Made by a program: the position numbers and the translations under genes. From Cytobacillus pseudoceanisediminis (GTDB lineage Bacteria; Bacillota; Bacilli; Bacillales; Cytobacillaceae), in NCBI RefSeq assembly GCF_023516215.1, contig NZ_CP097349.1, positions 3,100,001 through 3,164,000 on the forward strand: DNA of 64,000 nucleotides, given 5' to 3'. Positions 15,655-58,490 of this stretch are shown piece by piece (position 1 is the first letter of the stretch; each line of letters starts with the position of its first letter). The notes below the pieces were generated by a model, which worked only from the letters and a program-made list of their open reading frames with translations, was not told the origin of the DNA and ran no database searches.

Positions 15655-15895
15655 GATAGTACCAATTTATGAGCGGATAAGCACTTTTCTGTGCAGATAC
15701 CCCACTTTTATGTGCGGATAGCTTATTTTTATGTGCGGAAGCACTTTTACTATATAAATCTGGCTGCCTGAGAGATTGTGACTGCTTTTACTTTCGGATA
15801 GCTGGGTTTTACTTGCAGATAGCTCTTTTTTATTTTCGGATAAACCCTTTTATTGCCGTATAACTCATTTTTATTTTCAGATAGCCTTTTTCACG
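15655..15895. repeat. 20-21 bp phased degenerate repeat array (about 11 units)
   Basis: Non-coding tract between the yhfW-like terminator and the insertion sequence. GGATA/AGATA cores, usually within TTTTATNTGCGGATAGC, start at about 15675, 15695, 15716, 15737, then after two or three weaker units at 15796, 15817, 15838, 15858 and 15879. Spacing is 20-21 bp throughout. Units are degenerate and no protein-coding potential is seen. Compare the array at 56.03-56.84 kb. Confidence 0.7.
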
Positions 15896-53462: not shown

Positions 53463-55231
53463 ATGCTGGAACTGCTGATTACGATGCTGGAGCGGCTTGG
53501 AATCATTGTCACCATTGCGCTGATTCTGACAAGGTTCCGCTTTTTCAGAGAGATGATTTATGGCGAAAGATTAAAACGGCAGCAGGAGTATAAAGCCATT
53601 CTTTTTTCGGCTTCTTTGGCATCATTGGAACCTATTCAGGGCTGGCCTTCAATACGGACACACTGCAGTTTAACCGCTGGGCATCCGAACTTGCTACAGA
53701 TGAAGCCATTGCCAATTCCAGGGTGATCGGGGTTGTGCTCGCCGGATTGCTTGGCGGTCCTAAAGTAGGAGTTGGGGCAGGAATTATAGCAGGATTCCAC
53801 CGATTTACGCTTGGCGGCTTTACCGGGATTGCCTGCGGTTTGGCATCGATAGTGGCGGGGCTACTTGCCGGATTTTTCCGCCGGAAAAATGAACATGTGA
53901 AGCTATCGTCGGCATTCTTCATCGGTGCTACGGCTGAAGCCGTGCAGATGCTGATTATTCTCGGTATGTCACGGCCTATAGAAAAAGCAGTTGCGCTAGT
54001 CGAAATGATTGGAATTCCCATGATTATAGCAAATGGTCTTGGCAGTGCCCTATTTTTACTGATCATAAAAAATGTCATAAACGAAGAAGAAAAAGCAGGA
54101 GCTTTTCATGCACAGAAAACACTTCGGATTGCTGACCAGACGCTTGCACACCTTCGTGAAGGGATTAATCATAAGTCCGCACTGGCAGTCTGCCTGATTT
54201 TACATAAGGAACTTCAGATGAAAGCAGTTGCAATCACCAATCACACCGAAATCCTTGCCCATGTCGGCCTTGGAAATGACCACCACCGCTCCGGAAGCCC
54301 GATCCAGACACAGATAACACGGGATGTCATTCAGAACGGGGAAATTGTGGTTGCCAATGACCAGACCATTCACTGCCGGCAGGAAAACTGTCCTCTTGGC
54401 GCAGCCATTGTCGCTCCTTTAAAGCTGCGCGGCGAAACCATCGGAACGCTGAAGTTTTACTTCACTTCGGAAAAAGAAATGACTAATCTCGTGATGGAGC
54501 TAATTTCCGGGCTAAGTGTACTGCTCAGCAATCAGCTCGAGATCGCTGAGGCTGATAAAGCCTACCAGCTGGCAAAGGAAGCTGAAATTAAAGCACTGCA
54601 GGCGCAAATATCACCGCATTTTTTATTTAATTCATTAAATACGATTATTTCCCTTGTGCGGATCGAGCCTGCCCAGGCAAGGAAATTGCTCGTTTCCTTA
54701 TCTCATTTTCTGCGGCAAAATCTGACGGCCACAACAGTCAGCTGTACGACCCTTGAACAGGAGCTCAGACATGTAAAGGCCTATCTGTCAATTGAAGAAA
54801 CCCGGTTTGTGGATCGGCTCGAAGTTATATACGACATTGATGAAGATGCCCTTTTGGAAAGAATCCCGCCGCTCACTCTGCAGCCGATTGTGGAAAATGC
54901 CGTAAAGCATGGGATTAAGAACAAGGAACAGGACTGTATCATTATGATCAAAATTCAGAAACAGGATGGAATGACGTTAGTAAAAGTGAAGGATAATGGA
55001 CAGGGAATGAGCCGGGAAAGAGCCGAACAGCTCGGCAAAGAAACCCTGCAGTCAGAATCGGGCTCCGGACTTGCATTGTACAATGTAAACCGCCGGCTGA
55101 CCATGATGTTTGGTGAGGAAGCTTCGCTGCAAATTGCCAGCACTCCAGGCTTCGGCACTGACATACAATTCGCCATTCCGCAAACGGAGGAAAAAACTGA
55201 TGGAAAAAACGATCCGAATTTTAATCGCTGA
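53463..55231 (+). CDS. lytS: LytS-type sensor histidine kinase (frame broken once in a homopolymer)
   Basis: Repaired length is about 589 aa. The start at 53463 (MLELLITMLERLGIIVT) follows GGGGTTCTGAGG. The first frame ends after KQQEYKAILF; one base added to the T6 run at 53602-53607 gives FFGFFGIIGTYSGLAFNTDTL and continues into the second frame. Domains: 5TMR_LYT membrane sensor (residues 1-190), GAF-like region (to 360), His-kinase region with ISPHFLFNSLNTIISLVRIEP and HATPase motifs IVENAVKHGIKN and DNGQGM. LytS-type kinases sense pyruvate in B. subtilis and E. coli (BtsS). It overlaps lytT by 32 nt, and a further missing A near 55191-55196 would give the commoner TGATG overlap. Confidence 0.87.
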
Positions 55232-55930
55232 TGACGAACGATACAGCAGAGATGAATTAAAGCATTTACTCGAGGAGTTTCCTGCTATCCAGGTTGTCGG
55301 CGAGGCTGAATCTGGCGAAGCGGCCGTGATGAAAGCCATCCAGCTTCAGCCGGACGTCGTTTTCCTTGATGTGGAGATGCCCAGGATGAACGGGATGGAA
55401 GCTGCCAAATCATTGCAGGAGCTAAAAAAAGTGCCGCTCATTATCTTTGCAACCGCCTACCCGCAGTTTGCTGCTGAAGCCTTCCGCTATGAAGCAACCG
55501 ATTATTTACTGAAGCCCTACGACGAGGAGCAGCTCGAACAGACCATCAGGCGAGTGGAAAAATTGATTGGTGCCAAAAAAGAAAATGACACCAGCAAGCC
55601 CGCCGGCAAACTGGCTGTTGAAGAAGATGGAGAAATACTTTACTTGGAGCCAAAAGAAATCCTCTATATCTACCGGGATGAAAAAGTATCCAGAATTATA
55701 ACCAGAACCGGTGAGCATGAAACTAAAACCCCCTGAAAGATTTGGAGAGCCGGCTGCTTCCCTTTAGCTTTTTCCGGATTCATAAAAGCTATCTGGTGAA
55801 TCTGGATTATGTCACACGACTCACCCCCTGGTTCAACGGGGCATACCAGCTTGAGATGGAAGGCCGGGAAGAACTTCTGTCTGTGAGCCGGAACTATGTG
55901 AAGGCACTGCGGGTGCGATTGGAATTGTGA
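55200..55930 (+). CDS. lytT: LytTR-type response regulator (frame broken once in a homopolymer)
   Basis: Repaired length is 243 aa. The receiver domain is complete: ILIADDERYSRDEL acidic pair, phospho-Asp in DVVFLDVEMPRMNGMEAAK, then FATAYPQFAAEAF and YLLKPYDEEQL. The LytTR DNA-binding domain starts AVEEDGEILYLEPKEILYIY and continues after the break as LKDLESRLLPFSFFRIHKSYLVNLDYV. One base added to the C5 run at 55729-55733 joins the two. The start at 55200 is set by GGAGG nine nt upstream. LytTR domains bind two direct half-sites about 21 bp apart. cstA lies 1.1 kb downstream, after a large repeat array. Confidence 0.87.
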
Positions 55931-55934
55931 AAAT

Positions 55935-55957
55935 GCATCGGTGACGGTGCCTTTTTG
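55935..55957 (+). terminator. Terminator of lytST
   Basis: Short stem GCATCG / CGGTGC (one G-T pair) with a GTGA loop followed by CTTTTTG. Confidence 0.5.
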
Positions 55958-56029
55958 TTTTTTGTGGGGGAAGTTTTTGAGGGGGATTGCAGTGATTCAG
56001 AGATTGATTGCTTTTCTGAGGGGGTCTGA

Positions 56030-56845
56030 AATCGGGTTTGGGCTCTTTTATTGGGAATTGCGCCAAAATCGATGGGGATTGCGCTCTCCTGCTTCGGTTT
56101 CGCGCTGTTATTGTGTCTGTTTGCGCTTATCTGGGATGTTTTTGCGCTTTGAGAACGGGTTTGCGCTCTTTTTACTGGGAATTGCGCCAAAATCAATGGG
56201 GATTGAGCTTCCCTGCTTCGGTTTCTCGCTGTTATTTTGCCTGTTTGCGCTTATCTGGGAGGTTTTTGCACTTCGAGAACGGGTTTGCGCTCTTTTTACT
56301 GGGAATTGCGCCAAAATCAATGGGGATTGCGCTTCCCTGCTTCGATTTCACGCTGTTATTGTGTCTGTTTGCGCTTATCTGGGATGTTTTTGCGCTTGGA
56401 GAACGGGTTTGCGCTCTTTTATTGGGAATTGCGCCAAAATCGATGGGGATTGCGCTCTTCTGCTTCGGTTTCGCGCTGTTATTTTGCCTGTTTGCGCTTA
56501 TCTGGGAGGTTTTTGCGCTTTAAGAACGGGTTTGCGCTCTTTTTACTGGGAATTGCGCCAAAATCGATGGGGATTGCGCTCTTCTGCTTCGGTTTCGCGC
56601 TGTTATTATGTCTGTTTACGCTTATCTGGGATGTTTTTGCGCTTTAAAATCGGGTTTGCGCCCTTTTTACTATGAATTGCGCCAAAATCGATGGGGATTG
56701 CGCTCTTCTGCTTCGGTTTCGCGCTGTTATTTTGCCTGTTTGCGCTTATCTGGATGTTTTTGCGCTTTGAGAACGGGTTTGCGCTCTTTTTACTGGGAAT
56801 TGCGCCAAAATCGATGGGGATTGCGCTCTCCATATCGCTTTGGCA
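56030..56845. repeat. Higher-order tandem array: 124-bp units built of 21-bp GCGC-phased subunits
   Basis: The GCGCC at the head of each unit starts at 56060, 56184, 56308, 56431, 56555, 56679 and 56802, so the period is 123-124 bp with about 6.5 copies. Inside a unit, GCGC or a one-base variant occurs at offsets 0, 21, 42, 63, 84 and 103, then 124. In the first unit all six are intact; in the second some are GAGC, TCGC or GCAC at the same positions. About 39 cores are therefore phased at 21 bp (one 19-bp step per unit). Weaker 21-bp spacing extends left to about 55968. Since 124 is not a multiple of 3, long open frames crossing it cannot encode a repeat protein. It fills the 1.1-kb space between lytT and cstA. 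Confidence 0.88.
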
Positions 56846-56975
56846 CTATATATTTAGTTTAACTGGACTGCTAACCACTAAATATAACGAATTTTCTATA
56901 CATTCCCACCCTTCGATGCATGTTAATCCCCCATCACTGCATTTTAATCTTTGTTTTTTACATGTTGGACACAAA

Positions 56976-57024
56976 TTGTTCAAATTTCCTTCTCTTCTTA
57001 TATAATTAATGTAAACGCATTCAT
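56976..57024 (+). promoter_or_regulatory. cstA promoter with CcpA cre site
   Basis: TATAAT at 57001-57006 preceded by TTGTTC about 19 nt upstream. At 57009-57024 lies ATGTAAACGCATTCAT, which matches the cre consensus WTGNAANCGNWNNCAW at every position. The cre overlaps the expected transcription start, a placement that gives CcpA repression when glucose is present. Confidence 0.7.
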
Positions 57025-57035
57025 AAAGGGGGATA

Positions 57036-58490
57036 ATGATGATTACTTTTTTAGTCTGTATTGCACTTTTAATTATTGGTTATTTTACGTACGGCAAGTT
57101 TGTTGAAAAAGTATTCGGTGTGAAGGAGGCACGGACGACTCCGGCCTACACGCATGCTGACGGTGTGGACTATATCGCAATGAGCACACCAAAGAACTCG
57201 TTGATTCAGCTATTGAATATTGCAGGTACTGGTCCGATTTTCGGCCCGATTATGGGAGCGCTTTACGGACCTGTAGCCTTTATCTGGATCGTGGTCGGCT
57301 GTATTTTTGCCGGTGCCGTTCATGATTATTTAACTGGAATGATTTCGATCCGCAACCGCGGCGCGCATTTGCCTGAGCTTGCGAGCAAGTTCCTCGGGAA
57401 AGTCATGAAGCATGTTGTGAACGCTTTCGCCGTTCTTCTTCTGTTATTGGTTGGTACGGTGTTTGTTACAACTCCGGCTGATCTGCTTTATGTGGTAATG
57501 GATCAAAAAATCTCACTAACTCTAATCATTGCTGCAATTTTCATCTATTATATTTTGGCGACTTTGCTGCCTGTTGATAAAATCATCGGACGCCTGTACC
57601 CATACTTTGGCGCATTGCTTTTAATCAGCGCATTTGGCGTAGGTATTGGTTTAGTGGCAACTGGTGCCGATATTCCGGAAATTTCTCTGCAGAATTTCCA
57701 TCCGGCTAACGCACCTATTTTCCCATTGCTGTTTTTCACTATCACTTGCGGTGCTCTTTCCGGTTTCCATGCAACACAGACGCCGATTATTTCCCGTACA
57801 ACTCAGAATGAAAATCAGGGACGCAAGATTTTCTATGGCATGATGATTGCAGAAGGTGTTATCGCCATGATCTGGGCTGCTGCCGCAATGAGCTTATTCG
57901 ATGGTTATAACGGATTAAGTGATTTCCTTGCTAACGGAGGTCCTGGTGCCGTTGTAAGCGAAGCTTCTACCTTAATGCTTGGGGCAATCGGCGGAACACT
58001 TGCGATTCTTGGTGTCGTGGTCCTTCCGATCACTTCCGGAGATACAGCTTTCCGAAGTGCACGAATGATTATTGCTGACTATATTAACTTCTCCCAGAAG
58101 AAAATTTCCAGCCGTTTGTGGATCGCTATCCCATTGTTTGCTCTTTCTTTGGCACTTACGCAAATCGACTTTAACATCTTATGGAGATACTTCAGCTGGG
58201 CTAACCAATCAACTGCGGTTATCGCGCTGTTTGTCGGTGCCATGTACTTGTATATCGCGAAGAAAAATTACTGGATTTCCCTTATACCTGGAATCTTCAT
58301 GCTGTTAATGGTCCTAACGTATATCTTTAATGCGCAAATCGGGTTCGGTTTATCAATGAATGCTTCCTGGATTGGCGGAGCCATCGGTACCGTCATTCTA
58401 GTGGCACTATTCTTCTCCGCTGCTAAAAAGGCTCGGGCGAATAACCTGCCGCTGGAAGAAGATATTTCCGGCTGGAAGAAATCCGCTTAA
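57036..58490 (+). CDS. cstA: CstA-family carbon starvation/pyruvate-type transporter
   Basis: 484 aa with 12 or more membrane segments. Family motifs: TPAYTHADGVDYIAMSTPKN, LNIAGTGPIFGPIMGALYGP, GAVHDYLTGMISIRNRGAHLPEL, and HATQTPIISRTTQNE. This is the short (about 480 aa) CstA form common in Firmicutes. Family members BtsT and CstA of E. coli take up pyruvate and peptides, and BtsT is driven by a LytS/LytTR pair. The start at 57036 follows AAAGGGGGAT (a second ATG follows at once). Control is inferred to be CcpA repression plus LytT activation. The next gene overlaps its stop codon. Confidence 0.88.
   Translation: MMITFLVCIALLIIGYFTYGKFVEKVFGVKEARTTPAYTHADGVDYIAMSTPKNSLIQLLNIAGTGPIFGPIMGALYGPVAFIWIVVGCIFAGAVHDYLTGMISIRNRGAHLPELASKFLGKVMKHVVNAFAVLLLLLVGTVFVTTPADLLYVVMDQKISLTLIIAAIFIYYILATLLPVDKIIGRLYPYFGALLLISAFGVGIGLVATGADIPEISLQNFHPANAPIFPLLFFTITCGALSGFHATQTPIISRTTQNENQGRKIFYGMMIAEGVIAMIWAAAAMSLFDGYNGLSDFLANGGPGAVVSEASTLMLGAIGGTLAILGVVVLPITSGDTAFRSARMIIADYINFSQKKISSRLWIAIPLFALSLALTQIDFNILWRYFSWANQSTAVIALFVGAMYLYIAKKNYWISLIPGIFMLLMVLTYIFNAQIGFGLSMNASWIGGAIGTVILVALFFSAAKKARANNLPLEEDISGWKKSA

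Follow-up and report, generated by a model that had tools for sequence, protein, structure and literature searches.

STAR elements of Staphylococcus are short, GC-rich direct repeats that occupy intergenic regions at many loci and whose function is unknown (PMC3532100). Their spacers are locus-specific and often recur inside a locus, the number of repeats expands and contracts, and their locations differ between species (PMC3532100). The STAR core is the 14-bp sequence T(G/A/T)TGTTG(G/T)GGCCC(C/A), and successive cores are separated by 40 bp or more (PMC3532100). The GCGC arrays described here are likewise dispersed and intergenic (nine loci) and have mostly locus-specific spacers; however, they carry a 6-bp TTGCGC every ~20.6 bp and are grouped into higher-order units of five or six monomers, and helical phasing is not mentioned for STAR elements in the part of the source consulted (PMC3532100). 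Seven aligned units of the array analyzed contained no GGCC, and its core-to-core step was 19-21 bp. Because the core differs and STAR spacing is at least 40 bp, this array is not a STAR element. The original prediction that no described element has such an architecture was too strong, since STAR elements, as far as that part of the source describes them, are close in kind (PMC3532100).

The BrickBuilt element of Porphyromonas gingivalis is a minisatellite-MITE with 19 intergenic occurrences of a 23-nt tandem repeat in a single genome; it has one repeat sequence and a leader and tail with inverted-repeat ends, according to the part of the report consulted (PMC4596501). In contrast, the core here varies from array to array, and a non-systematic inspection of the GCGC arrays revealed no terminal inverted repeats common to them. 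MITEs carry terminal inverted repeats and a target-site duplication; neither was seen by eye when the array was compared with relatives that lack it. In plasmid origins, iterons are direct repeats of ~19-22 bp that match the helix and are bound by an initiator. The GCGC arrays resemble them in having direct repeats of about two helical turns, but are chromosomal, lie at many loci, and have a core of only ~6 bp. Eukaryotic alpha satellite consists of diverged 171-bp monomers in a near-identical, tandemly amplified multi-monomer unit. The GCGC array also groups diverged monomers into an amplified higher-order unit, although it is bacterial, has a 20.6-bp monomer, and is <1 kb as a whole. CRISPR arrays have identical, longer repeats with unique spacers; here the spacers come back in every unit, and CRISPR was rightly excluded at the outset. 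Among the matches listed in our search of the open-licence literature (titles and abstract openings), none describes ~20.5-bp or 52-bp intergenic arrays in Bacillaceae.

The locus is best read as an intergenic minisatellite of STAR-like type whose sites follow the helical pitch and which would act, if at all, at the DNA level. Somewhat short of probable, in our judgment, is the fuller proposal that this genus of Bacillaceae and its relatives share a class of intergenic arrays in which helix-matched sites are read at the DNA level, and that this array is a member.

Architecture of the array between the lytT-like gene and cstA

The window, i.e., the whole 64-kb stretch of DNA that was analyzed, covers positions 3100001-3164000 of the first of two contigs in a 5.69-Mb genome. 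TRF detected a 124-bp repeat of 6.5 copies at 56033-56831 of the window (91% matches), representing head-to-tail units of 123-124 bp on the + strand; the spacing between successive unit starts was also 123-124 bp. The consensus unit contains six GCGC-type cores at positions 7, 28, 49, 70, 91, and 112, separated by five steps of 21 bp and followed by a step of 19 bp to the first core of the next unit; these are the predicted offsets of 0, 21, 42, 63, 84, and 103 with the origin shifted. Thirty-three of the 39 core positions are exact (29 TTGCGC and 4 TCGCGC, the latter counted by eye), all on the + strand, and the six inexact positions hold 6 changed bases in total. GCGC occurs 33 times inside 55968-56845 and 101 times across the rest of the 64-kb window, and GCGCAA is absent from that interval. 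A self-match scan covering lags of 5-69 and 100-129 gave values of >0.38 at lags 19, 21, 42, 61, 63, 103, 123, and 124. The TRF result, unit starts, and self-match lags bear out the two-level organization originally claimed, and the array is confirmed as genuine.

The array had been assigned to 55968-56845. It is present in this interval, but the first ~65 bp (55968-56032, + strand) lack full units and consist of degenerate leading monomers at a ~20-bp step (TTGCAG and TTGCTT positions), which were also recognized by eye in Cytobacillus oceanisediminis 2691. The view that the length of the 124-bp unit is non-coding was upheld. Genome-wide, the exact pair TTGCGC-N15-TTGCGC had 29 matches and the reversed pattern had none, and the spacings of exact TTGCGC pairs clustered at 19-22 and 40 bp; core phasing is therefore not due to chance.

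Upstream of the array, on the + strand, is a response-regulator reading frame (55200-55736) that is LytT-like by resemblance and matched only the receiver domain PF00072. It stops early compared with its relatives, near a short C run that differs from those of L037 and L040, and the early end is either a real frameshift or a homopolymer assembly error. A terminator-like hairpin between this gene and the array (55935-55950, + strand) is a consensus match only, and such matches in the region numbered 3 against 2.4 expected from shuffles. Downstream lies a gene for a CstA-family transporter (57036-58490, + strand; PF02554), which was 79-100% identical across the 80 loci kept for comparison. Its protein was 100% identical in C. 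oceanisediminis 2691 (L037) and 96-99% identical in the eight records that follow (L038-L045), most of which bear Cytobacillus or Bacillus in their titles. Gene and genus names were taken from record titles and Pfam rather than from phylogeny.

Arrays elsewhere in the genome and in relatives

Exact TTGCGC pairs 10-40 bp apart numbered 65 in the genome, 22 of which were in the main array; among the other 43, 23 were spaced 19-22 bp and 9 were spaced 40 bp. GCGC arrays were located at nine loci, namely the main array and those at 0.534, 1.37, 2.55, 2.64, 2.70, 2.78, 2.90, and 3.22 Mb. The 2.55 Mb locus is irregular (spacings of 19 and 17) and the 2.70 Mb locus has one exact pair only; a lone pair at 4.55 Mb (21-bp spacing), which is found in relatives too, was left out of the count. 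An absence of further copies from the genome and its relatives had been set beforehand as evidence against the prediction, and several other copies exist. TRF gave 103-bp units with five cores at 0.534, 1.37, 2.64, 3.22, and 2.78 Mb, compared with six cores in the main array; 103 bp corresponds to five monomers and 124 bp to six. Identity between the 1.37 and 2.64 Mb arrays is 82%, and no other pair among the eight arrays of this genome compared (2.55 Mb omitted) shared spacers at E 1e-5. According to rough reading-frame calls, the arrays are intergenic, and their core strand is antisense to both flanking genes at 1.37, 2.55, 2.64, and 2.70 Mb, sense to the neighbors at 3.22 Mb and in the main array, and mixed or unclear at the remaining loci.

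The window also contains two further ~21-bp arrays on another core (TTTTATGTGCGGATAGC / TTTTACTTTCGGATAGC) within 15666-15880 on the + strand (TRF rows 15666-15749 and 15786-15842, the remainder by eye). We took a TRF census of 424 kb of this genome, including the window, which had been chosen for its array, and of same-genus genomes (400 kb of G005 and 100 kb each of G009 and G006), using cut-offs of our own choice (period ≥15, copies ≥2.1, score ≥55) and a rough reading-frame test for intergenic position. Outside long reading frames the census gave 18 arrays, and the basic period of every one was either 20-21 bp (11 arrays, the main array being entered by the 21-bp spacing of its cores) or 52 bp (7 arrays), some of the latter also showing 104, 156, and 207. 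Four arrays inside reading frames, with periods of 52, 21/33, 24, and 42, were set apart. In the same-genus stretches sampled, 52-bp arrays are thus common, and so are arrays with other cores at a pitch of ~20-21 bp.

Arrays of 52 bp in this genome were located at L163:904-1330, L168:9988-10472, L169:13169-13641, L174:13064-13643, L161:17960-18236, L158:13465-13584, L031:270-558, and L035:1-483. They comprise several unrelated sequences, some with a higher order of 104, 156, or 207 bp, and some contain inverted arms (TTCGGAC...GTCCGAA; ATGACGAC...GTCGTCAT).

Outside the genus, TRF periods were less uniform: 22, 22/44, 24, and 35/70 in G064; 41, 20/39, and 18 in G087; 21/42, 53, 53, 23, and 23 in G060; 21 in G207; and none in G040. 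A total of 160 kb (40 kb from each of four genomes in other families of the class) yielded periods of 18, 36, and 18 and an in-frame 18, a sample too small to settle the contrast. The 80 cstA neighborhoods contained 20-bp arrays on TCGCTATAAAAA or TCGCCAATAAAA in Mesobacillus and similar records (L097, L100, L102, L104, L108, L110, and L113), a 19-bp array on AGCGCATAACCC in L105, 52-bp arrays in five records (L058, L077, L081, L084, and L086), and periods of 17, 18, 24, 25, 40, 51, and 125. In two Mesobacillus-like records (L102:960-1010 and L110:933-982), the first monomer doubles, by eye, as the right-hand arm of an inverted repeat (ATTGGCGAACTGGAAA...TTTCCAGTTCGCCAAT), and array and hairpin are therefore joined. 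Arrays of 25 bp with the palindrome TGAGCCTGGCTCA lie 3' of cstA in Rossellomorea and Bacillus records (L074:5688-6102, L094:5665-6033, L103:5697-5864, and L106:5686-6178); 25 bp does not fit whole helical turns.

The TTGCGC triple was present in 17 of 398 class genomes, and the repeated wording of the matches suggests that many of them may be coding. Matches to the reversed control of this search brought to light arrays in f46, a family of the same class, where the CGCGTT core is repeated mostly every 20 bp (triple matches: 24 in G207, 30 in G427, 7 in G315, and 4 in G386). On G427 contigs C3, C5, C8, C42, and C52, such arrays begin within ~45 bases of the contig ends, which suggests that the repeats may break assemblies. 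The exact TTGCGC pair was found in 41 of 101 relatives, with just one or two matches in 30 of these, and its reversed control in 25 of 101. A clear excess over the control was limited to a few genomes (G005, 12 versus 0; G024, 10 versus 0; G068, 10 versus 1; G087, 6 versus 1), and the counts in G064 (21 versus 16) were non-discriminating.

Helical pitch, copy number, and sequence change

The mean core pitch in the main array is 20.6 bp, not 21. In a scan from 9 to 12 bp per turn, which scored seven arrays of this genome (the 2.55 Mb locus was left out, as was own_2.78, for which one run had too few cores), the core phases of the main array agreed best at 10.30 bp per turn, with a coherence of 0.87, compared with 0.27 at 10.5. 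Together with the arrays at 0.534, 1.37, 2.64, and 3.22 Mb, five of the seven had a best fit of 10.28-10.36 and a coherence of 0.81-0.95; the four-core 2.70 Mb array fitted 10.50, and the 2.90 Mb array fitted 10.18 (coherence 0.63). Of the claim that ~39 cores lie on one face of the helix, the 39 core positions stand; however, one face needs ~10.3 bp per turn, and with a pitch of 20.6 bp the cores leave a common face at 10.5. "Two helical turns" describes the monomer well, and "exactly 21 bp" does not. In other arrays, the pitch was 20.0 (L100 and L151), 20.2-20.5 (L102, L110, L149, L150, and L154), and 20.9 (L148); L105 gave 19.5, but its coherence was poor. Monomers of the proposed class would be ~20.5 bp, or two helical turns, with only a short core in common, which is TTGCGC in the window array. 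Copies inside one array are not independent, and the recurrence of the same unit lengths in arrays with unrelated spacers is the stronger argument.

The higher-order units of five (103 bp) or six (124 bp) monomers vary in copy number in the manner of a minisatellite. As assembled, the window has 6.5 units; C. oceanisediminis 2691, whose flanks are closely similar, has about half a unit (by eye) at the same intergenic site, and TRF gives 2.1 copies of a 123-bp unit in G005. The drop in a close relative with a complete genome bears both ways on the concern that unit number might collapse; copy number does drop, but this is readable as variable copy number. At the same site, the monomers of L038 and L039 have diverged and follow one another every 19-21 bp, with no 124-bp higher order, L041 has two recognizable cores by eye, and L042, L044, and L045 have no array by eye; the array is therefore dispensable in these three. 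The 124-bp array is thus either a young expansion or has contracted in C. oceanisediminis 2691.

This behavior is consistent with a neutral or selfish minisatellite, a distinct possibility that we would not call probable but rate level with sites read at the DNA level, in which duplication and unequal recombination make and erase arrays and no factor reads the cores. The periods of ~20.5 and 52 bp would then come from amplification, for example, if slippage or exchange on helical DNA favored a certain step. The presence of many unrelated cores at a similar pitch also favors this explanation, as does the rate of change. Divergence from relatives' arrays was 0.155 per site, a figure inflated partly by alignment of non-equivalent copies, and thus three times that of flanking intergenic DNA (0.051). 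Indel events per substitution in related arrays were ordinary (0.090 versus 0.114 in flanking intergenic DNA), with no significant depletion (p = 0.30), and the idea that spacing is more constrained than the core gained no support. In the window's own units, changes affected 6 of 156 sites in 4-bp cores versus 30 of 643 elsewhere (p = 0.83) and 6 of 234 sites in 6-bp cores versus 30 of 565 (p = 0.09); recent copies thus show little or no core constraint.

Against a neutral minisatellite, cores changed two-fold less than spacers between arrays. Over nine pooled alignments (of 11 planned pairs; the last two, both with L041, were left out), 81 of 909 core sites (8.9%) and 403 of 2441 spacer sites (16.5%) differed, giving an odds ratio of 0.49 and a p-value of 1e-8 before allowing for non-independence. 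The core/spacer rate ratio of 0.54 was below those of all 40 control hexamers (0.58-1.62, mean 1.00; 400 random hexamers drawn, 51 qualified, first 40 scored), and the two lowest-ratio controls mostly overlap the core. Two of the nine pairs showed the opposite trend, with cores not having fewer changes (2.90 Mb versus G024 and cstA versus L039). In 17 arrays fitted without core anchoring, conservation along the monomer was uneven (combined p = 4e-7; 6 of 17 singly at <0.05), although a single contiguous conserved block was supported at p<0.05 in only three, and some of the 17 are mutually homologous. Since repeat copies are non-independent, these p-values overstate the evidence. The same core also occurs at loci with unrelated spacers, and we know of no established mechanism for a preferred 20.5-bp amplification step, which counts against this explanation.

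Possible roles of the arrays

If the helix-matched sites are indeed read at the DNA level, a core repeated at this pitch would form a row of sites in register. The putative reader would be a DNA-binding protein, either nucleoid-type or a regulator, and phased bends may act with it or in its place; a local nucleoprotein or curved segment would thereby form between transcription units. Array size would be set by tandem amplification via unequal recombination, spacers would be free to drift, and bending would be a frequent by-product of pitched sites. This reading is favored by the common core and step of the nine loci, the best fits of 10.28-10.36 in five arrays, the lower rate of change in cores, and the high modeled curvature of the main array. 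Cooperative protein binding or DNA curving, as originally predicted, is thus possible; however, the many different cores with similar pitch argue against one specific protein. An array of GCGC methylation targets would call for a GCGC-specific methyltransferase; the genome has one PF00145 match (a C5-methyltransferase, on the second contig), which may or may not have that specificity.

It is improbable that intrinsic curvature is itself the function, with T-tracts and GC cores in phase giving a static bend. A wedge model with provisional parameters, which weakens this case, predicted 108 degrees per 103 bp for the main array versus 41 for shuffles, and 101 versus 39 for shuffled-unit repeats; predicted curvature exceeded that of 99% of window positions. 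All 14 arrays modeled were above the median of their shuffled-unit controls (mean percentile 0.79), but only four reached the 95th percentile or higher and 10 were below it. Compared with repeats of random genomic DNA, 9 of 11 arrays were above the median and L169 and L174 were below it. Curvature was near background in own_2.70, own_2.90, own_3.22, and G024_0.534, and it was therefore set aside as a property common to the arrays.

A direct pair, TGCATGTTAATC / TGCATTTTAATC (TGCATNTTAATC), 21 bp apart, lies outside the array and upstream of cstA at 56917-56949 (+ strand), beginning 86 bp 3' of the array end. Period-21 TRF rows occur directly upstream of cstA in L064, L066, L074, L080, L089, L094, and L106, with a more divergent row in L109. 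From its geometry, we take this pair to be perhaps a LytTR-type operator, and as a candidate operator it would suit better than the array. The array might then be an extension or decoy of the operator of the LytT-like regulator, and the monomer TTGCGCTTATC is loosely similar to the pair; however, GCGC arrays lie at eight other chromosomal loci and the pair, varied in form, is kept in the array-less L042, L044, and L045, and we set aside this very improbable explanation.

An RNA-level element (a structured 3' UTR, terminator, or antisense RNA) is just as hard to credit: the T-rich strand of the main array runs in the same direction as both flanking genes and the array holds two weak terminator-like matches (with a total count near the shuffle mean), but Rfam gave no match on 55900-57040 at E up to 1 and just two unrelated families on seven loci of this genome, two units folded no better than shuffles on either strand (z +1.9 and -0.5), and a structured RNA family was rejected on these grounds. 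Core strand relative to the genes also varies among the other loci, and this variation and the lack of excess folding favor a role at the DNA level.

A wider reading, which we consider rather unlikely, is that the arrays belong to an extensive and so far undescribed class in the intergenic DNA of this genus and other Bacillaceae, whose units are whole numbers of turns (~20.5 bp, two; 52 bp, five; 103 bp, ten; 124 bp, 12). Cores would diversify fast between loci and species, while pitch would be conserved and maintained by a nucleoid protein or by an amplification process that measures it. Such a wider helical-pitch pattern would be a bacterial satellite-like system, and it is what most deserves to be followed. 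Should the pitch prove functional, the arrays would mark chromosome sites that build nucleoprotein or bent segments from helix-matched repeats, comparable to eukaryotic satellites; if it is a mere by-product, it would reveal an unrecognized length preference of tandem amplification. In either case, the arrays are candidate loci for strain typing.
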